From assembly GCF_014202505.1 (NCBI RefSeq), contig NZ_JACHGW010000004.1, forward strand, positions 558,001 to 622,000: DNA of 64,000 nucleotides, given 5' to 3'. Of this stretch, positions 26,507 through 37,351 are shown piece after piece. A program made the position numbers and the translations under genes. How positions within the stretch are numbered: position 1 is the stretch's first letter; every line of letters starts with the position of its first letter. The notes beneath the pieces are model-generated. The model was not told the origin of the DNA. It worked only from the letters and a program-made list of their open reading frames with translations, and did not search any database. The stretch comes from Armatimonas rosea. Its GTDB lineage: Bacteria > Armatimonadota > Armatimonadia > Armatimonadales > Armatimonadaceae.

Positions 26507-28273
26507 CTACTTAAACGAGGGCAGGACAATTCCACGCAGGATCACTTTCTGCGCGGCCAGGAAGACCAGCAGCGTGGGCAGTGCCGCCAGGGTGAGTGCC
26601 GCAAAGATCACGTACTGCGGTGCGCTGGACTGCAGGTTGTAGAGCGCGACCATGATGGTCCACATCTTCGGGTCCTGACAGACCACGAGGGCGAAGAGAA
26701 AGGCACCGTAGGCCCCGGTGAAGGCATTGAGCGCGATCACCGAGAAGATCGGCAGCGACAGCGGGAGCGTGATCCGAGCAAACATCGCCAGCTCCGATGC
26801 CCCATCCAGAATCCCCGCTTCGTAGAGTTCCTTGGGCAGTGAGTCAAAGAACCCCTTGAGCAGAAAGATCGAGTAGCCACTGGCGAGCCCAGGGAGGATC
26901 AGTGCCCCGAAGGTGTTGAGGAGCCCCAGGCTCTTGAGCATCAGGAAGTTAGGGATCATCGCGACCTCGGCGGGGAAGGCCATGGTCGCGAGGAGAAAGA
27001 GCAAGACCTTGTAGGCGTAGGGCAGCGGGTAGCGCGAGAGCGCGTAGGCGCAGAGCGGGTTGACTAAGAGCGCCCCCAGGATCGAGAGCACACAGAAGAC
27101 AACGGTATTGAGCAGGGTGCGCCCGCTCTGTCCCCCAGTCATGAGCTGCCGGTAGACATGGATAAAGTTGCGCCCCACAAAGTCCTGGCGCAGCTCGCTG
27201 CGGTGGGCCTTCACAAAGGCAAAGTCCGCGGCGGCCTGCGGGGGCTGGGCCGTGGTGTCACTACGGGTGGCGCGCCAGAGGTTCTCCGGTGCCTGCGCGA
27301 CCAAGGCACTCACCGGCGCGTCGGTCTTGATGAACTCCATCCAGTCGGTGAGGGAGAGGCCATCGGCGGGCGGGGCGGTGGGCAGTGGGATCTGCGGGCG
27401 CTTGCGGCGCGCCAGAAACGCCTGCCAGGCGGGTGCGGCGCTGGCCTCGACCTTGAGCATGCGGAGCGGGAACTTGGTGCGCATGAACACCTCCCAGTCC
27501 GTGTAGCTTGCTCCCACGGGTGCGGTGGTGGGCAGGGTCAGCGCGGTCCAATCCGTAACCGACGTCTTCCAGGCGGCGTTGAGGTTCTCCAGCTTGCCTT
27601 CGTAGCGGTCCTCCTTGAGAAACTTACGCCAGAGAGAGTCGCCAAAGGTCGGGATCAGGTAGTTCTTAGGGAGGCTCTTGCGGAAGGCGAACCAGTCCTT
27701 GACCTTGGGACGCTCACTCTGGGGCATCCAGGCGCGGAGGTTGGGCTTCTCGATCGGCGCGGTGATGGTCTCGAAGCGGACATTCTCCTCACGCCACGCC
27801 TTGTTGAGCGCGTCGATATCGTTGCCGTACTTTTGCTTGAGCCAGTCTCGGAAGCGCATCAGGAGCGGTGCGGGCGCGTTCTCGTGCTCCCCGAAGCCGG
27901 CGCGCAGGAGGTGCTCGGGGAGGGACTGGGCGAAGCTCTCCCAGGCAGCGAGATCGGCGGGCTCCCCTGTGGGAACCGGGGCCTCAGCGACTTTTTTGTA
28001 GTCCGCGTGGTGGGCCGCGTTGAGCTCATCGACATTGTTGGCATAGCGGTCCTCCAGGTACTTGACATAGAGCGCCGCATCGTCGCGCCAGTACGCCGGG
28101 ATCAGGCGTGCGGGGGCGTAGTCATTGAAGTCCGACTGGCTCTTGGTGGCCGTGGAGAGCATCAATAAAAACGGGTAGAGCGTGGTCACGGCCCCGAGGC
28201 TCAGCACCAGGTAGAGCACTGCCAGCCCCAGCCGCACCTTCCACGAGCGCCTCCCGATCCGTGAGATATGCAT
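26507..28273 (-). CDS. ABC sugar transporter permease with large repeat insert
   Basis: The C-terminal 220 residues form a MalG/CUT1-type permease. Membrane helices begin at TLLNTVVFCVLSILGALLVNPL, and the coupling motif EAGILDGASELAMFARITLPLSLPI contains the EAA loop. The first helix is at 13-40 (LGLAVLYLVLSLGAVTTLYPF), as usual, but between the first and second helices lies about 310 extra residues. The total is 588 aa against the usual 280. The insert, probably extracytoplasmic, holds four imperfect repeats (about 64-119, 137-202, 212-269, 281-330) with a W-x-x-[FY]-L-x-x-x-Y...LN-x-A-W...DW-x-x-F...LP pattern. The ATG directly follows the stop of the upstream gene. No partner permease, binding protein or ATPase is adjacent. 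Confidence 0.85.
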   Translation of the reverse strand: MHISRIGRRSWKVRLGLAVLYLVLSLGAVTTLYPFLLMLSTATKSQSDFNDYAPARLIPAYWRDDAALYVKYLEDRYANNVDELNAAHHADYKKVAEAPVPTGEPADLAAWESFAQSLPEHLLRAGFGEHENAPAPLLMRFRDWLKQKYGNDIDALNKAWREENVRFETITAPIEKPNLRAWMPQSERPKVKDWFAFRKSLPKNYLIPTFGDSLWRKFLKEDRYEGKLENLNAAWKTSVTDWTALTLPTTAPVGASYTDWEVFMRTKFPLRMLKVEASAAPAWQAFLARRKRPQIPLPTAPPADGLSLTDWMEFIKTDAPVSALVAQAPENLWRATRSDTTAQPPQAAADFAFVKAHRSELRQDFVGRNFIHVYRQLMTGGQSGRTLLNTVVFCVLSILGALLVNPLCAYALSRYPLPYAYKVLLFLLATMAFPAEVAMIPNFLMLKSLGLLNTFGALILPGLASGYSIFLLKGFFDSLPKELYEAGILDGASELAMFARITLPLSLPIFSVIALNAFTGAYGAFLFALVVCQDPKMWTIMVALYNLQSSAPQYVIFAALTLAALPTLLVFLAAQKVILRGIVLPSFK

Positions 28274-30235: not shown

Positions 30236-31279
30236 CTAAAACATCGCGTGGAGGCGAGCGAGCAGCGCCTCGGTCTCGTCCCAGCCCAGGCAGGCATCGG
30301 TGACCGACTTGCCGTAGACCATCTCCTTGCTGATGCTCTGCTTGCCCCCTACTAAGTTGCTCTCGATCATCACACCCAGAAGGGACTTGTCCCCCTCCAG
30401 GCGCTGGCGCCCGATCTTCTCGGCGACAAAGGGCTGGCGCTCAGGGTCGTAGCCGGAGTTGGCGTGGCTGGCATCGACCACGATTCCGGGGGGGAGCCCG
30501 GCTTTATCGAGGCAGGCCACGGCGCGGGCGACACTCACCCGGTCGTAGTTGGGCTGGCTCTTCTTGCCACCGCGGAGCACCAGGCACACATCGGGGTTGC
30601 CGGGGGTGCGCACCACGCAGCAGCGACCATCCTCATCGAAGCCGAGGTAGGAGTGCTTGCTCTGCGCCGACTGCATCGCATCCAGCGCGATCTGCAGCTC
30701 GCCATCGGTGCCGTTCTTGAAGCCCACGGGCATGGGCATCCCGCTGGCCATCGCCCGGTGCGGCTGGCTCTCGGTGGTGCGAGCGCCGATCGAGCCAAAG
30801 GAGATTAAGTCGGCGAAGTAGTCCGGGGTCGCGGTATCGAGCAGCTCGGTGGCGACGGGCAGGCCCAGCTCGGTGATCTCGACTAGAAGCTTGCGGGCGC
30901 GGCGCAGCCCCTCGGACATGTCGTAGGTGCCATCGAGGTGCGGGTCGTTGATCAGGCCGCGCCACCCGACTGTCGTGCGGGGCTTCTCAAAGTAGGTGCG
31001 CATCAGGATCACCAGCTTGTCGGAGTACTGCGCGGCCAGCGGCGCGAGGCGGCGGGCGTAGTCCAGCGCGGCCTCGGGGTCGTGGATGGAGCAAGGGCCG
31101 GTGACCACCAAGAAGCGGGAGTCCTGGCGGTTAAGGAGACGCTGGATGGCCACACGGCCCTGGGCGACAGTCTGGTACGAGGCGGCACTGACCGGAAACT
31201 CCTCCCGCAGCACGGCGGGGGCAGGCAGCACGGTGCGGGTCACGGCGCTCTCATCTCGTTTATCGGCGATCTTGTCCAT
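30236..31279 (-). CDS. aroG: 3-deoxy-7-phosphoheptulonate (DAHP) synthase, type I
   Basis: The 347-aa enzyme condenses phosphoenolpyruvate and erythrose 4-phosphate, the first step of aromatic amino acid synthesis. It matches the AroF/AroG/AroH type in length and motifs. VTGPCSIHDP lies near 59-68, RTYFEKPRTTVGWRGLINDP is the PEP/metal region, and the C-terminal part has IVVDASHANSG and the substrate motif GVMIESNLVGGKQ. The N-terminal extension used for feedback inhibition in E. coli enzymes is present. Upstream lies an aromatic leader peptide and terminator (31303-31434), so expression is likely attenuated by aromatic tRNA charging. No other aro genes are adjacent. Confidence 0.93.
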   Translation of the reverse strand: MDKIADKRDESAVTRTVLPAPAVLREEFPVSAASYQTVAQGRVAIQRLLNRQDSRFLVVTGPCSIHDPEAALDYARRLAPLAAQYSDKLVILMRTYFEKPRTTVGWRGLINDPHLDGTYDMSEGLRRARKLLVEITELGLPVATELLDTATPDYFADLISFGSIGARTTESQPHRAMASGMPMPVGFKNGTDGELQIALDAMQSAQSKHSYLGFDEDGRCCVVRTPGNPDVCLVLRGGKKSQPNYDRVSVARAVACLDKAGLPPGIVVDASHANSGYDPERQPFVAEKIGRQRLEGDKSLLGVMIESNLVGGKQSISKEMVYGKSVTDACLGWDETEALLARLHAMF

Positions 31280-31302
31280 AGGTTTGCTTTGCTCTTTCCC
31301 AA

Positions 31303-31337
31303 GAAAAAAGCCCGCCCCGGTTCTCCGGGGCGGGCTT
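31303..31337 (-). terminator. Attenuator terminator before DAHP synthase gene
   Basis: On the minus strand a 13-bp stem (AAGCCCGCCCCGG with its complement, AGAA loop) is followed by TTTTTTC. It sits between the aromatic leader peptide (stop at 31360) and the DAHP synthase start (31279), so it can decide whether the gene is transcribed. Confidence 0.85.
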
Positions 31338-31359
31338 GGTGTGGGTGTCTTGGCAGACG

Positions 31360-31434
31360 CTACACAACGGCTCCGTCCCGGTTCGGGAAGAAGTAAAAGC
31401 TAAAATACCAGTAGCCGTTGGTGGGGTGTGCCAT
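31360..31434 (-). CDS. Aromatic leader peptide (24 aa) of the DAHP synthase attenuator
   Basis: A 25-codon frame begins at ATG 31434 and ends at TAG 31360. Codons 8-16 read YWYFSFYFF, eight aromatic residues out of nine, covering Tyr, Trp and Phe. Downstream lies a strong terminator and then the DAHP synthase gene, the layout of amino-acid-controlled attenuation. The codon 6-8 region (AACGGCT) can pair with AGCCGTT in codons 21-23, so a stalled ribosome would alter folding. A -10-like TATGAT (31451-31456) or TACAGT (31446-31451) is near the start. The peptide itself has no other expected function. Confidence 0.85.
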   Translation of the reverse strand: MAHPTNGYWYFSFYFFPNRDGAVV

Positions 31435-31450
31435 AACTAAAATCCACTGT

Positions 31451-31456
31451 ATCATA
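31451..31456 (-). promoter_or_regulatory. Possible -10 box of the attenuated operon
   Basis: TATGAT on the minus strand lies 16 nt before the leader peptide ATG; the overlapping TACAGT (31446-31451) is an alternative that would start transcription almost at the ATG. No convincing -35 box is seen. Confidence 0.4.
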
Positions 31457-31557
31457 AGCACACAGACTTTGCACCACACTGTTGTGGCACCTCGCCTGCT
31501 TGACACCATGGCAGAGAGGAACTATTACAATATGCCCATCGTCTAATGGAGAGAACC

Positions 31558-33021
31558 ATGTCCCTATCTGAGATCCAACCCCGGCGCACCGCGCACACGC
31601 TCTTTGTGGACTTTGTCGGCTACTCCCGGCTCTCCGCCGACTCGCAGGCGGCGGTCCAGGTCGCGCTCCAGAACCTGGTCTACAACCTCCCCGCCTTTAT
31701 CGCGGCCCGCAACGACGGCCAGCTGATGGTGCGCAAGACCGGCGATGGGATGGCGATTGTCTTCTTTCAGGATGTTGAGTTCCCTCTGGCCGCCGCGGTG
31801 GCGCTGGACGAGGTCCTCAAGCACCAAGCGACCAGCCTGCGGGACCAGGTGGGCGCAAACTTTCGGCTCCGTATGGGAGTCCACTCCGGCCCAGTCGTGA
31901 TTGTCGATGAAGACGGCGATGGGATCATGGATGTTGCGGGCGAGGGAATCAACACGGCCCAGCGGGTGATGGACTGTGGCGACCAAGGGCATATCCTGGT
32001 CTCTGGCCCGGTCTTCAATCTCGTAGAGGAGAAGCCGCACTGGAAGAGCCTCCTCCATGATCTGGGAATCGTGCGGGTGAAGCACGACGAGCTTGTCCAC
32101 CTCTACAGCCTCCACGGGATCCGCCCCGATGGTACGACAATCGGCTACGAGGCCCTGCCCCGCAAGGTCTACGAGAGCCGGGAGCGTGCTCGGGAGCAGG
32201 CAGAGCAAGAGGCAGCGCGCACCCAAGAGGAGAACCGGAGCACGGTCACGGGCTATGCCCTCCGCGCCGCCCTGCTCCTGGGAGCCCTCGTGCTCCTGGG
32301 CTCACTGCTCTTTATGGTCTGGCGCCACAGCACGCTGGACTCCAAAGAGGTCCAGCATGTCGCCGATGTCATTCGCAAGAACAAAGAAGAGAAAGAACGC
32401 AAGAACCAGCCGCCTACCCCTGAGCCCAAGCCCATCGTGGTCGCCACCCCCACCCCCGGACCGGCGAGCACAAGCCCCGAGACAAGCGCAATGGTCGAGG
32501 CGGATGTCCCGAGTATTGTCGGCCTGCCCCGCGCCGATGCGGAGAAAGCTCTCGCGGCTGTCAAGCTGACCCTGGCCCTCTCGGAGAAGAGCCCGGAGGT
32601 GCAGAACCCCACGGTCGCGCCGGGGACGGTCCTGAGCCAGTTCCCGATCCCAGGTAAGCAGTTTGTGCGCGGGGGGACGGTCTACGTGAGCCTCGCCGTA
32701 GGCGGCCAGGTAGCGCCGACTCCCGCCCCCGCCGGGGAGCAGAGTGCCTTCACCGGAGTTCTGGTGGATGCCCGTAGCTTTCCCCAGCTCGCCAATAGCG
32801 CCTCGATCGGGCTGTTTGGCCCCAACGATGTCGCGCTCTACACCAGCTCCGGCGCTACCAACGACGAGCTCCAGGCGGTCCAGGCCGTGGGGATCAATCC
32901 CCTTCGGATCACCGCCCAGCAAGCCGGCGCTCAGGGAGTGGGCCTCGCGGCGGAGGATGTGGAGAAGCTCCGCACCCTCCCCGATTCCGTCCGCGCTAAG
33001 ACGGTCGTTCTGCGCCCGTAG
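31558..33021 (+). CDS. Class III cyclase-domain membrane protein with PASTA domain
   Basis: The 487-aa protein has an N-terminal adenylate/guanylate cyclase catalytic domain (FVDFVGYSRLSADSQ, RKTGDGMAIVFF, RMGVHSGPV, residues about 12-190). A transmembrane helix follows near 230-250 (ALLLGALVLLGSLLFMVW), then a Pro/Thr-rich linker, a PASTA domain (VPSIVGLPRADAEKALAA, near 320-385) and a C-terminal unknown domain. PASTA domains bind peptidoglycan fragments, so the protein may link wall state to cyclic nucleotide signalling; this is inference. The ATG at 31558 follows GGAGAGA by three nt and is preferred over an ATG 12 nt upstream. TTGACA at 31500-31505 and TATTAC at 31524 could be the promoter. 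Its end overlaps the convergent efflux gene by 26 nt. Confidence 0.85.
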   Translation: MSLSEIQPRRTAHTLFVDFVGYSRLSADSQAAVQVALQNLVYNLPAFIAARNDGQLMVRKTGDGMAIVFFQDVEFPLAAAVALDEVLKHQATSLRDQVGANFRLRMGVHSGPVVIVDEDGDGIMDVAGEGINTAQRVMDCGDQGHILVSGPVFNLVEEKPHWKSLLHDLGIVRVKHDELVHLYSLHGIRPDGTTIGYEALPRKVYESRERAREQAEQEAARTQEENRSTVTGYALRAALLLGALVLLGSLLFMVWRHSTLDSKEVQHVADVIRKNKEEKERKNQPPTPEPKPIVVATPTPGPASTSPETSAMVEADVPSIVGLPRADAEKALAAVKLTLALSEKSPEVQNPTVAPGTVLSQFPIPGKQFVRGGTVYVSLAVGGQVAPTPAPAGEQSAFTGVLVDARSFPQLANSASIGLFGPNDVALYTSSGATNDELQAVQAVGINPLRITAQQAGAQGVGLAAEDVEKLRTLPDSVRAKTVVLRP

Positions 33022-36000
33022 GACTCCCCACCGCACGGTCACAGCGGGCCCAGGCCGCGAGCAAGGCACAGCGGGCATTGACCACGTTGCTCTGTGCCTG
33101 GGTCAGCGCGGCCTGGGCATCTGCCAGGTCCAGCAAGGGAGAGACCGTCCCCTCGCTCACCCCCGCGTTGTACTTGATCCGCGCCAGCCGCGCCGCCTCT
33201 TCCGCGGTCGCCTGGGCCTGCTCTGCCACACCGAGCCGGGCCTGGGCATCGCGGATCGCGAGCACGGCCTGGCGCACCTCCAGCGCGACTGCCTCCTCGA
33301 GCTGGCTCAGCGTGGTCTCGGCACTGCTCTGGTCCGCCCGCGCCTGCTGCCGACGGCTCCGGGCGAGCCCGCCATCGCTCAGCGGCAGGGTCACCCCCAC
33401 GGCGACTTGGGCGAGGTCCCGCACCGCCAGTGAGCCCGCGTTGGGGTTGTACTGTCCGCCCAACGAGACTCCCACACTCGGGGCCAGGCTCCGCTGCGAG
33501 AGCTTGACTCCCAGCGATGCCGCCTTCACGCCCAGCCGTGCCTGGAGCAGCTCGGGCCGCTGGGAGCGGGCGCTCGCCTGGAGCGTGGCTTCGTCGGGGA
33601 GGGGCCGCTCGGGAGTCGCCCGCTCCCCCAGCACGAGTGGGCTCTCCAGCGGGAGGACGAGCAGGGTCGCCAGCGCGGCCTGCGCGAGCTTGACCCCGTT
33701 CTCGGCTTGCAGGAGCTGCTGCTGGGAGTCGGCGAGCCCGGTCTGGGCGCGCAGGACATCCAAGCGCGGTGCGATTCCTGCCTTCTGGCTCGCCTCCGCA
33801 TCGTGGAGGCGCTGTGCGGCGGTCTCCTGCGCCGCCCGTGCCACCCGCTCCAGCGCCACCGCTCGGGTGAGCTCGTAGCAGGCGAGCCGCACCTCCAGCG
33901 CCACGATCTGCCGGGCGCTCTCAACTCCCAGCAGCCCACTGGCCTCGTCGAGCTGGGCGGCATCGCGTGCGGTGTGGAGCAGCCCCGCAACATCCAGAGG
34001 CAGGGTCGCGCTGGCGGCGTACTGCGCCTGCTCCAAGTACGCGCCCTGGATCGCCACGGGACCTGCCGCAAAGCGCTGCTCACGGTTGAGCCGCACCAGG
34101 TTCGCACTCACCCCTGCGGTCGGCTTGAGCGCCGCACGGGCCTCGTCGGTCTTGCCCGCCGCACGCCGCACCAGCGCCTCCGCAAGCTGCACACGGCGGC
34201 TCTTCTGGAGCGCCTGAGTCACGGCACTATCGACCGTCAGGCTCTGTGCCTGGCTCGGGAGCGCCATCATCAACACGCTTGCCACGACCGCCGGGACTAG
34301 GAGACGTCGTGCCTCGCCGCGGGCCAGGAGGGCGTAGACACTGGGAATGACGATCATCGTGAGGAAGGTCGAGACCAAGAGCCCGGCGATAATCGCCCAG
34401 TCGAGCGGCGGCCAGAGCTTGCTCCCGGCGTAGGCCTGCGGCAAGAGCGCCCCCACAGAGAGCAAGACGGTCAGCAGGATCGGGCGCAGGCGGCGGCGGC
34501 TCGCATCGACCAAGGCCTCCGCCATCGAGACGGGCTGCTGGCGCTGCTCTTCTTGGGCGTAGTGGAAGATAAAGATCGTGTGGTTGGTGACGATCCCCCC
34601 CAGCGCGGCGATCCCCAGAAAGGCCATGAAGCCAAAGTTCTGGTGCGCCAAGTAGAGCCCCGGCACGGCACCAATCACGCCCAGCGGCACCGACGAGAGA
34701 ATCGCAGTGACGATCGGGACGGAGTTAAACTGGACCATGAGCACGACCAAGTTGAAGACAAAAGCCACGGCAAAGACCACCATCATGTCCGTGAAGGTCT
34801 TGTTGGCCTCCTCTTGCTCCCCACCAAACCCGACAGTCACCGGCTCTGCAAGCGGTCTCTGGGCCAGCGATAGCTTGAGGTCGTCCACCACCGCGGAGGC
34901 GAGCCGGGTGCCATCCAGAAACGCGGAGACCGTCAGGGTGCGCTGGCCGTTGCGGCGGACAATGCGCCCCTCGCCGGGGGTGAGCGCGAGGGTGGCGACC
35001 TGACGCAGAGTAACCCCACCCGGCAGGTAGAGATTGAGGACATCGTCGGGGGACCTGCGCTCGCTCGCCGCCACCCGTAGCTCGATAGGAATCTCTTTAT
35101 CCCCCTCACGGAAGAGCGAGACGGTCTGCCCCGTGACTGCCAGGCGTGCGGTCTGTGCCACGGCAGCCGACGAGAGCCCGAGCGCGGCGGCCCGGTCTTC
35201 GTCGATCTTCACCTCGAGCTGGAGCGGGAGCTCACCGTAGCTGTTGTGGACACTGTGCGTCCCCGCGATCCCATTGAGCCGCGCCTCCAGCTCTGCCGCC
35301 GCCCGCCGCAGGCCCGCGACCGACTCGCCGGTCACGCGCACCGCCACGGGAGCTCCCACGGGCGGGCCTTGTTCGAGTTTCTTAGCCGTCACCCGCGCCT
35401 CCGGGACGGCCGTCCGAGCCGCGCTCTGCAGCGAGGCCACCAGCGCCTCGGTCTGGTCCAGGGTCTCCGTGTTGACCACGAGCTGGGCGTAGTTGGGGGT
35501 CGGGACCTCGGGGTTGACATTGTAGTAGAAGCGCGGCCCGCCCTGCCCGATATAGCTCACGTAGGAGACAATGCCCTTCTGACCAGCTAACAGTTTCTCC
35601 ACTTTTTGGACCGCACGCTCGGTCGCCCGGATATCACGGCCCTCGGGGAGCCAGACATCGATCGTGAACTGGTCGCGATCCGCCGACGGAAAGAACGAGA
35701 AGCCCAGCTTGGGGATCAGGCTCACCGCCCCGAAGAGCAGGACCGATGCGATCCCAACCACCACTCCCGGCCGACGGAACGCGAGCTGGGCGAGGTTTGC
35801 CTTCCCTTCCCGCAGGGCATCGACACCGCGGTCTAGCCAGCGCTGCACCACGGTTTTCTTTTCGTCGTGGCCCGCTCGCAGGAATCGGAAGCAGAGCAAG
35901 GGTAGGACCGTCAGGTTGAGCACGACCGAGACCACGAGCGAGAGGCCGGTCACCAGCCCCAGATCGCGCACAAAGTCGCCCGCGCCCCCCGGCAGGAAGG

Positions 36001-37351
36001 CAAGCGGGAGAAACGAGCTAATCGCCACCAGGTTTGCGGTGATAAAGGGGCCACGAAGCTCATCGGCACCCGAGATCGCGGCCTCCTCGCGGGGGATTCC
36101 CGCCGCGAGCTTCTCCTCGATGTTATCCAGCACGACAATACTGTTGTCCACGACCAGCGCCAGCGCGATAATCAGCGCGGCGATACTCATCTGCTGGATC
36201 TCGCGGCCCGTGAACCACATCGCGGCAAAGGTCACCAGCATCGAGAGCGGGAGCATCGCCCCCACGAGGAGTGCGGAGCGCCAGCCCATGAAGGCCAGCA
36301 TGACCACAAAGATAATCGCCACCGCCAGCATCAGCTCGTGAAAGAAGCTCCCCACCCGGCGCTCGACCGAGCGCGGCAGGTTGTTGACGGTCGTCACGCT
36401 TGCGCCCTGCGGCAGGCTCAGCCCCGCCACGACCGCCTGTGCCTTGGCCCCCAGCGCGGAGATATTGCCGCCCTTGCGCATGGTCAGGCCGACCCCCACT
36501 GCGGGCTCGCCCCCGACCCGGAGCAGGGCGGCGGGGGGATCGGCAAAGCCGCGCGTGACGGTCGCGATGTCCCGCAGGTAGACCGGTGCGCCTTGCTCAG
36601 AGAGGCCCACGACTAGGCTCTCCAGGGTCGCCGGGTCGGTGAGGTTTCCGGTCGGCAGAAGGGTGAGGCGTGCATCGCCCGCCGCCAGCGAGCCGCCTAC
36701 CTCCGGCAAGACATTCTTCTGGGCGATCGCCGCCGCGATACGCTCCGTGGTCACCGCGCCGCCCAGTGCGCCCAGCCGCTGCGACGAGAGCGAGACGGTC
36801 ACCACCTCCTGCTCGACTCCTAGGAGCTGGGTCTCGCCCACCTCGGGGAGGACCTTGAGACGGTCTCGGAGCTGGCGGGCCAGGGCCTCGCGGTCGCGTG
36901 CACTCGCCCCCGGCTGGGTGACCGCAAAGATCAGCGCCGACGTATCCGCGAACCGATCGTTGACCGCCACACTCACGACACCCGCAGGGAGCTGGGGGCG
37001 TAGGTCCGCACTGCGCTTGCGGAGCTGGTCCATGAGCTTGTCGAGCGTGTCGGTCATGCGGTCGGCGGCCTGCACCTGGATCACGGCAAGACCGGGCCGC
37101 GATGTGCTGGTCACGGTCCCGACATCGTCGATCTCGCGCAGGGTTCGCTCCAGCTTCTCGGTGACAAGCTGCTCGACCTGCGAGGCCGAGGCCCCCGGAT
37201 AGAGCGCAACAACCTGGGCAAAGCGGCCCTTGAGATCGGGGTCTTCGCGACGGGACATCGTGAAGAGGCCCGTCAGGCCGAGGACCAGCACCAAGAACGC
37301 GACTAAAATAGTCACTGGGCGGTAGGTAAAGGCAAGGCGTGTCAGGGTCAT
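32996..37351 (-). CDS. RND efflux pump fused to TolC-type outer membrane channel
   Basis: The 1451-aa product has two complete parts. Residues 1 to about 1010 form an AcrB/MdtB-like RND transporter with two repeats of six helices. Its TM4 proton-relay motif is VVDNSIVVLDNIEEKL, and the first periplasmic segment begins GLFTMSRREDPDLKGRFAQV. Residues about 1014-1037 look like a signal peptide (LLVPAVVASVLMMALPSQAQ). The rest is an outer membrane factor with long TolC helices and the repeated-half pattern. Pump and channel are normally separate genes. The adaptor gene upstream overlaps by four nt (ATGA). The pump should export hydrophobic compounds by proton exchange. The fusion could be processed into two proteins at the internal signal-like segment. 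Confidence 0.9.
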   Translation of the reverse strand: MTLTRLAFTYRPVTILVAFLVLVLGLTGLFTMSRREDPDLKGRFAQVVALYPGASASQVEQLVTEKLERTLREIDDVGTVTSTSRPGLAVIQVQAADRMTDTLDKLMDQLRKRSADLRPQLPAGVVSVAVNDRFADTSALIFAVTQPGASARDREALARQLRDRLKVLPEVGETQLLGVEQEVVTVSLSSQRLGALGGAVTTERIAAAIAQKNVLPEVGGSLAAGDARLTLLPTGNLTDPATLESLVVGLSEQGAPVYLRDIATVTRGFADPPAALLRVGGEPAVGVGLTMRKGGNISALGAKAQAVVAGLSLPQGASVTTVNNLPRSVERRVGSFFHELMLAVAIIFVVMLAFMGWRSALLVGAMLPLSMLVTFAAMWFTGREIQQMSIAALIIALALVVDNSIVVLDNIEEKLAAGIPREEAAISGADELRGPFITANLVAISSFLPLAFLPGGAGDFVRDLGLVTGLSLVVSVVLNLTVLPLLCFRFLRAGHDEKKTVVQRWLDRGVDALREGKANLAQLAFRRPGVVVGIASVLLFGAVSLIPKLGFSFFPSADRDQFTIDVWLPEGRDIRATERAVQKVEKLLAGQKGIVSYVSYIGQGGPRFYYNVNPEVPTPNYAQLVVNTETLDQTEALVASLQSAARTAVPEARVTAKKLEQGPPVGAPVAVRVTGESVAGLRRAAAELEARLNGIAGTHSVHNSYGELPLQLEVKIDEDRAAALGLSSAAVAQTARLAVTGQTVSLFREGDKEIPIELRVAASERRSPDDVLNLYLPGGVTLRQVATLALTPGEGRIVRRNGQRTLTVSAFLDGTRLASAVVDDLKLSLAQRPLAEPVTVGFGGEQEEANKTFTDMMVVFAVAFVFNLVVLMVQFNSVPIVTAILSSVPLGVIGAVPGLYLAHQNFGFMAFLGIAALGGIVTNHTIFIFHYAQEEQRQQPVSMAEALVDASRRRLRPILLTVLLSVGALLPQAYAGSKLWPPLDWAIIAGLLVSTFLTMIVIPSVYALLARGEARRLLVPAVVASVLMMALPSQAQSLTVDSAVTQALQKSRRVQLAEALVRRAAGKTDEARAALKPTAGVSANLVRLNREQRFAAGPVAIQGAYLEQAQYAASATLPLDVAGLLHTARDAAQLDEASGLLGVESARQIVALEVRLACYELTRAVALERVARAAQETAAQRLHDAEASQKAGIAPRLDVLRAQTGLADSQQQLLQAENGVKLAQAALATLLVLPLESPLVLGERATPERPLPDEATLQASARSQRPELLQARLGVKAASLGVKLSQRSLAPSVGVSLGGQYNPNAGSLAVRDLAQVAVGVTLPLSDGGLARSRRQQARADQSSAETTLSQLEEAVALEVRQAVLAIRDAQARLGVAEQAQATAEEAARLARIKYNAGVSEGTVSPLLDLADAQAALTQAQSNVVNARCALLAAWARCDRAVGSPTGAERPS

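Follow-up and report, generated by a model that had tools for sequence, protein, structure and literature searches.

What is the role of a short reading frame packed with aromatic codons that lies, together with a strong terminator, just upstream of a DAHP synthase gene in Armatimonas rosea (Armatimonadota)? We have analysed this locus within a stretch of 64,000 nucleotides (64 kb; hereafter the window), and consider it, with a probability of roughly 0.88, to be a transcription attenuator of the ribosome-mediated (Yanofsky) type, by which aroF is adjusted to the availability of charged Phe, Tyr and Trp tRNAs. The elements from which the argument starts are the following.

31360-31434, minus strand: leader-peptide ORF of 24 codons, MAHPTNGYWYFSFYFFPNRDGAVV, stop TAG
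31387-31413, minus strand: putative sensing run YWYFSFYFF, codons 8-16, with 3 Tyr, 1 Trp and 4 Phe
31308-31337, minus strand: intrinsic terminator hairpin (segments 3 and 4), 13 bp, 11 of them G-C, folding at -29.5 kcal/mol
31337-31325, minus strand: 5' arm of the terminator, the candidate antiterminator partner
31301-31307, minus strand: terminator U-tract TTTTCTT, from the terminator scan
30236-31279, minus strand: aroF, the gene under the proposed control, a type I 3-deoxy-7-phosphoheptulonate (DAHP) synthase of 347 aa (TIGR00034)

The first-pass annotation of this DNA had described a 24-residue leader with YWYFSFYFF at its centre, followed by a strong terminator with a T-run and then the DAHP synthase gene, and all of these are present as described (the leader at 31434-31360 of the minus strand). 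The hairpin begins 22 nt after the leader ORF, has a loop of 4 nt (AGAA), and is the single site returned by the terminator scan (minus strand, 31337-31308). The downstream product is of the AroFGH type, with an NCBIfam TIGR00034 score of 462 bits against a cut-off of 173. This aroF is the sole close match in the genome (6.3 Mb); a further DAHP synthase, of a different type, and a KdsA-like gene lie elsewhere in it, both assigned from their lengths and neighbours.

Since a 5' UTR tolerates short ORFs, such an arrangement might in principle be nothing but a functionless aromatic-rich frame beside an ordinary terminator. However, the aromatic run is rare. Actually, across the six frames of the 64 kb no 9-residue window other than YWYFSFYFF contains 8 aromatics, and among ~1.37 million windows of the fetched DNA, at least 7 aromatics in 9 were reached only by this leader, by its orthologues in loci L002 and L007 (plus duplicate copies), and by one stretch in L052 (Marinamargulisbacteria). 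The last of these, YFFIWYFRY upstream of a DAHP synthase, was rejected as a leader, being out of frame within the preceding gene. In addition, the leader RNA folds better than 200 of 200 shuffles (z = -5.05), and the terminator cannot serve the upstream gene, because that gene is divergent. With the conservation in four genera and the conserved antiterminator complementarity given below, pure chance becomes an almost negligible explanation.

A candidate promoter element precedes the leader.

31451-31456, minus strand: -10-like hexamer TATGAT, 16 nt ahead of the leader ATG, a consensus match only

All six leader-bearing loci of the family have a -10-like hexamer at a distance of 10-17 nt ahead of the leader ATG; it is TGn-extended in L006, L008 and L009, and weak (CATGAT) in L002. 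By this consensus argument the leader mRNA should be almost leaderless, that is, TATGAT implies a transcript start of its own only ~10 nt ahead of the leader codons. The position of the element also supports the chosen leader start. A longer in-frame ORF of 49 aa from an upstream ATG was discarded: it would enclose the -10-like element, and the L002 orthologue begins at the 24-codon ATG.

The leader transcript may alternatively be mainly a small RNA, or the message of a trans-acting peptide, with the terminator as its end and aroF expressed from another promoter. A terminated transcript of ~140 nt, which is a by-product of any attenuator, agrees with this, and leader peptides with trans roles have been described, such as peTrpL of Sinorhizobium (PMC7298713). 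Against it, a consensus scan of the aroF strand between terminator and aroF gave no promoter-like site (weak evidence), the leader-terminator unit stands only upstream of aroF among the genes examined and tracks with it, and the antiterminator complementarity would be purposeless. We therefore regard this possibility as highly improbable.

As to the surroundings, the divergent gene adjoining the attenuator (31546-33021, plus strand) encodes a nucleotide cyclase catalytic domain together with a PASTA domain. The minus-strand frame at 32996-37351 is one ORF of 1451 aa in which an AcrB-type RND transporter (residues 10-1009) is fused to an outer membrane efflux protein domain (match 1256-1440); such a joining of two efflux pump components is unusual. 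On the same strand, 26507-28273 encodes a 588-aa MalG/UgpE-type ABC permease whose permease domain is preceded by a long insertion, and residues 139-177 of this protein match the beta-galactosidase family GH42.

We have compared ten aroF loci of the family that include the aroF start, L001 being the locus of the window. An aromatic leader is found in six of them, from four genera, always with a U-tailed hairpin 20-35 nt past the leader stop; across these loci the AroF identity to that of the window goes down to ~52%. The L002 orthologue, MARTNNSFWYFSFYFFPNREEAAL, uses the same start ATG; the other leaders contain NYGFYWQDGYFSFPWFPNVLERTAC (L006), RYYFNYLFFWFYYAEPGAGGRS (L007), YGYYYFPWQTPTPGAEATRR (L008) and LFWRQWLAFGYYFYQGQTRESGTNKTV (L009). 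Their length ranges from 24 to 56 codons, and sequence and spacing vary widely, with the aromatic density kept. Phe, Tyr and Trp codons are all present in every leader, each of which has at least one Trp and at least two Tyr. Conservation of the leader in relatives had been named in advance as a check on the attenuator interpretation. The recurrence of leader, terminator and antiterminator complementarity in six aroF loci of four genera supports that interpretation.

On the other hand, the four aroF loci of genus g3 (L003-L005 and L010) were found to have neither leader nor terminator; there, aroF follows a same-strand ORF by ~110 nt, with no terminator between. In the AroF tree the family forms one clade (100/97), and g3 is the sister of the window's genus. 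Because the leader is present in the deepest branch and the leaderless g3 is nested, one origin and one loss make the simplest history, and the absence in g3 is probably a loss. Outside the family, not one of the 1165 short ORFs in 150 regions upstream of a DAHP synthase reached 6 aromatics in 10 residues, and the 72 non-family loci of the phylum, which are part of these 150, gave no leader-terminator element.

Attenuation further calls on an alternative pairing, for which the following segments matter.

31369-31382, minus strand: segment 2, ACCGGGACGGAGCC, the antiterminator arm just before the leader stop
31413-31419, minus strand: segment 1, AACGGCT, codons 6-8, pairing with AGCCGTT in the minimum-energy fold of the untranslated RNA
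31366-31372, minus strand: AGCCGTT, codons 21-23, the partner of segment 1 in that fold

For each locus, the segment from the last aromatic codon to the terminator was paired with the terminator 5' arm and compared with 2000 dinucleotide shuffles. In the window, segment 2 and the 5' arm form a duplex of -18.4 kcal/mol, the shuffles averaging -11.8 (p = 0.015), and the pairing is present in all six loci (p = 0.015, 0.048, 0.0095, 0.025, 0.0135 and 0.019), with a combined Fisher p of 3.5e-6, or 8.7e-6 if the near relative L002 is left out. Both arms differ in sequence between loci, and the pairing is kept. In five of the six, the antiterminator arm occupies positions -24 to -5 relative to the leader stop and would be largely covered by a ribosome terminating there; the exception is L009, where the best arm, at -38 to -29, would escape such a ribosome, and a weaker one is found at -22.

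Two earlier remarks on pairing can now be judged. The first-pass annotation had seen a word nearly complementary to the terminator arm, and indeed CGGGACGG complements the 5' arm with one mismatch. It had also proposed that AACGGCT pairs with AGCCGTT. This helix is real in that it belongs to the minimum-energy fold of the window's own RNA, but it is not the conserved part; what recurs is the pairing of the post-aromatic segment (here CCGGGACGGAGC) with the terminator 5' arm. For the untranslated RNA, a helix between upstream RNA and segment 2 is predicted in L001, L002 and L008, is weaker in L009, and is absent in L006 and L007. As the untranslated RNA is thus predicted to protect the terminator in some loci only, we take this helix to be a local feature.

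We have then modelled the stalled ribosome by masking the RNA to 12 nt beyond its A-site, with RNA polymerase placed just past the terminator 5' arm. For the window's leader, the antiterminator probability is 0.81-0.90 with stalls at codons 8-15, drops to 0.46 at codon 16 and stays at 0 from codon 19 onwards. The stall region had been expected at codons 8-16; the model agrees for codons 8-15, whereas a ribosome at codon 16 already begins to cover the antiterminator. The other five leaders behave similarly, with probabilities of about 0.8-1 for stalls at aromatic codons, and the effective stall positions in every leader include Phe, Tyr and Trp codons. With the ribosome on the stop codon, the probability is 0 in five of the six loci and 0.82 in L009. 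That is, both halves of the switch are seen in the folding models of the window's locus and of four of the five others, whereas L009 fails the stop-codon half. As the RNA grows, antiterminator pairing prevails as long as no more than ~6-8 nt of the terminator 3' arm have emerged (~4 nt in L002); beyond this point the terminator takes over. Once complete, the terminator (-29.5 kcal/mol) exceeds the antiterminator in stability, so that read-through has to depend on kinetics.

The mechanism that these observations suggest would run as follows. RNA polymerase would initiate a short distance ahead of the leader ATG and be followed by a ribosome translating the 24 codons. With an ample supply of all three aminoacyl-tRNAs, this ribosome would reach the stop codon and cover segment 2 (31382-31369); the terminator 5' arm would then remain available, and the transcript would end in the U-tract, short of aroF. 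If any one of the three runs short, the ribosome would stall within codons 8-15, segment 2 would pair with the nascent 5' arm, the terminator would come too late, and aroF would be transcribed.

A leader peptide may also act by another route. In TnaC, the nascent peptide stalls the ribosome in response to Trp, and here the aromatic peptide might likewise stall its own ribosome on a free amino acid and not on an uncharged tRNA. Some peptide sequence is actually kept, as YFSFxxFPN is common to L001/L002 and L006. However, the variability of sequence, length and spacing noted above, set beside the constant aromatic density, fits codon sensing, and ligand-induced stalling would switch a biosynthetic gene in the wrong direction. 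Nascent-peptide sensing is thus very unlikely.

If the codons are what is sensed, how many amino acids count? The attenuator may effectively sense only one of them (e.g. Phe), with little or no contribution from the remaining aromatic codons. In most of the leaders no aromatic residue is more frequent than Phe, and the AroR leader of Corynebacterium glutamicum (Phe-Tyr-Phe) responds to Phe limitation and not to Tyr limitation (PMC11802643). Nevertheless, the Tyr and Trp codons kept in all six leaders stand at positions where a stall would free the antiterminator, and trpE in this family has a Trp leader of its own, on which ground Trp appears to be sensed in the family. Single-amino-acid sensing thus remains the less probable case, though one to be taken seriously. 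We lean towards a single leader acting as an any-of-three sensor, in which a shortage of Phe, Tyr or Trp alone would each open aroF, and a separate Trp leader would open trpE. If so, RNA-only attenuation would replace in Armatimonadota the logic of TyrR and TrpR in enteric bacteria.

The trpE leaders are Trp-rich ORFs followed by GC-rich terminators, found in six genera of the family (L145, L142-L144, L146, L147 and L149-L151), with WWW in most and WSW in genus g3. That of the same genome as the window (L145, G000:C8, ~134.2 kb) contains QWWWRTGACPVRATS and shows antiterminator complementarity at p = 0.005; seven loci combined give p = 0.0003, with L144, L147 and L150 not significant alone. 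They are probably Trp attenuators. Like the aroF leader, they combine a short leader holding the regulatory codons with a GC-rich terminator and with complementarity between the segment after the Trp codons and the terminator arm, and in the window's own genome the -10-like element is again close to the ATG; unlike it, they are Trp-only and stand on the Trp branch. Within the family, no aromatic leader was found before the second DAHP synthase, pheA or tyrA, and the regions before leuA and hisG gave no convincing match. Upstream of ilvB in the same genome (L232:3297-3583, minus strand), there is a T-box-like element of 55.4 bits (Rfam cut-off 93, E = 1.5e-9), probably a T-box. Hairpins with T-rich tails are also seen upstream of ilvB in L232-L237.

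Overall, the mechanism is that of classical ribosome-mediated attenuation, here in a new phylum and with a putative three-input design. We have found no description of leader-peptide attenuation in Armatimonadota in the openly accessible literature. Leader peptides were known in Proteobacteria and Actinobacteria, and Naville and Gautheret added Firmicutes (PMC2965389); the present case would extend the mechanism, known mainly from the first two and from some Firmicutes, to Armatimonadota. Here the entry enzyme of the pathway appears to be wired to three end products through one leader, next to a Trp-only leader on the Trp branch and a probable T-box for ilvB. This offers a natural example, readily open to experiment, of how codons alone can give control by several inputs, and cautions that such short leaders go unannotated in less-studied phyla.

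Known leader families do not capture the element: the Rfam family Trp_leader (RF00513) scores 19.6 bits in the window, below its cut-off of 41, and no Rfam leader family reached E<=1 in the six loci scanned whole. The E. coli trp, pheA and pheST attenuators share with it the leader ORF, the antiterminator and the U-tailed terminator. However, each of them answers to one amino acid (Trp for trp, Phe for pheA and pheST) and sits on branch or tRNA synthetase genes, whereas here a three-aromatic leader precedes aroF; the DAHP synthases of E. coli are under TyrR/TrpR repression (PMC11802643). The earlier remark that joint attenuation by Tyr, Trp and Phe is known in enteric bacteria is thus contradicted for E. 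coli. In Streptomyces lividans, leader peptides are transcribed with almost no 5' UTR, like the minimal 5' UTR predicted here, but the eight listed serve Trp, Leu, Ilv and others, with no aromatic DAHP synthase leader among them (PMC8079986).

The closest precedent is the actinobacterial aroR-aroF of C. glutamicum, where a leader of aromatic codons also precedes the DAHP synthase gene, and where ribosome stalling is reported to raise expression (Neshat et al. 2014, cited in PMC11802643 and PMC7356990; leader in PMC4046766). The difference is that the run with 8 aromatics in 9 found here includes Trp, while AroR has Phe-Tyr-Phe. In other Actinomycetota loci, including L027, L062 and L072, a leader MTxRWYAYFxxALEGP lies ~150-320 nt upstream of the DAHP synthase match, followed by a leader-complementary segment (GGCTCTGGAG with CTTCAGAGCC) and then by a hairpin without U-tract. 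These are probably aroR relatives carrying all three aromatics. The leaders of Arthrobacter and Microbacterium (MTNRWYAYFSLALEGPASN and similar), with the same kind of hairpin, have no sequence likeness to those of the Armatimonas family, and in the AroF tree this family is far from the AroF of Actinomycetota. As Phe, Tyr and Trp all occur in the Arthrobacter and Microbacterium leaders too, leaders of this composition probably have more than one origin. The leader of the Armatimonas family would work like an aroR-type leader, a likeness of mechanism that does not imply homology.
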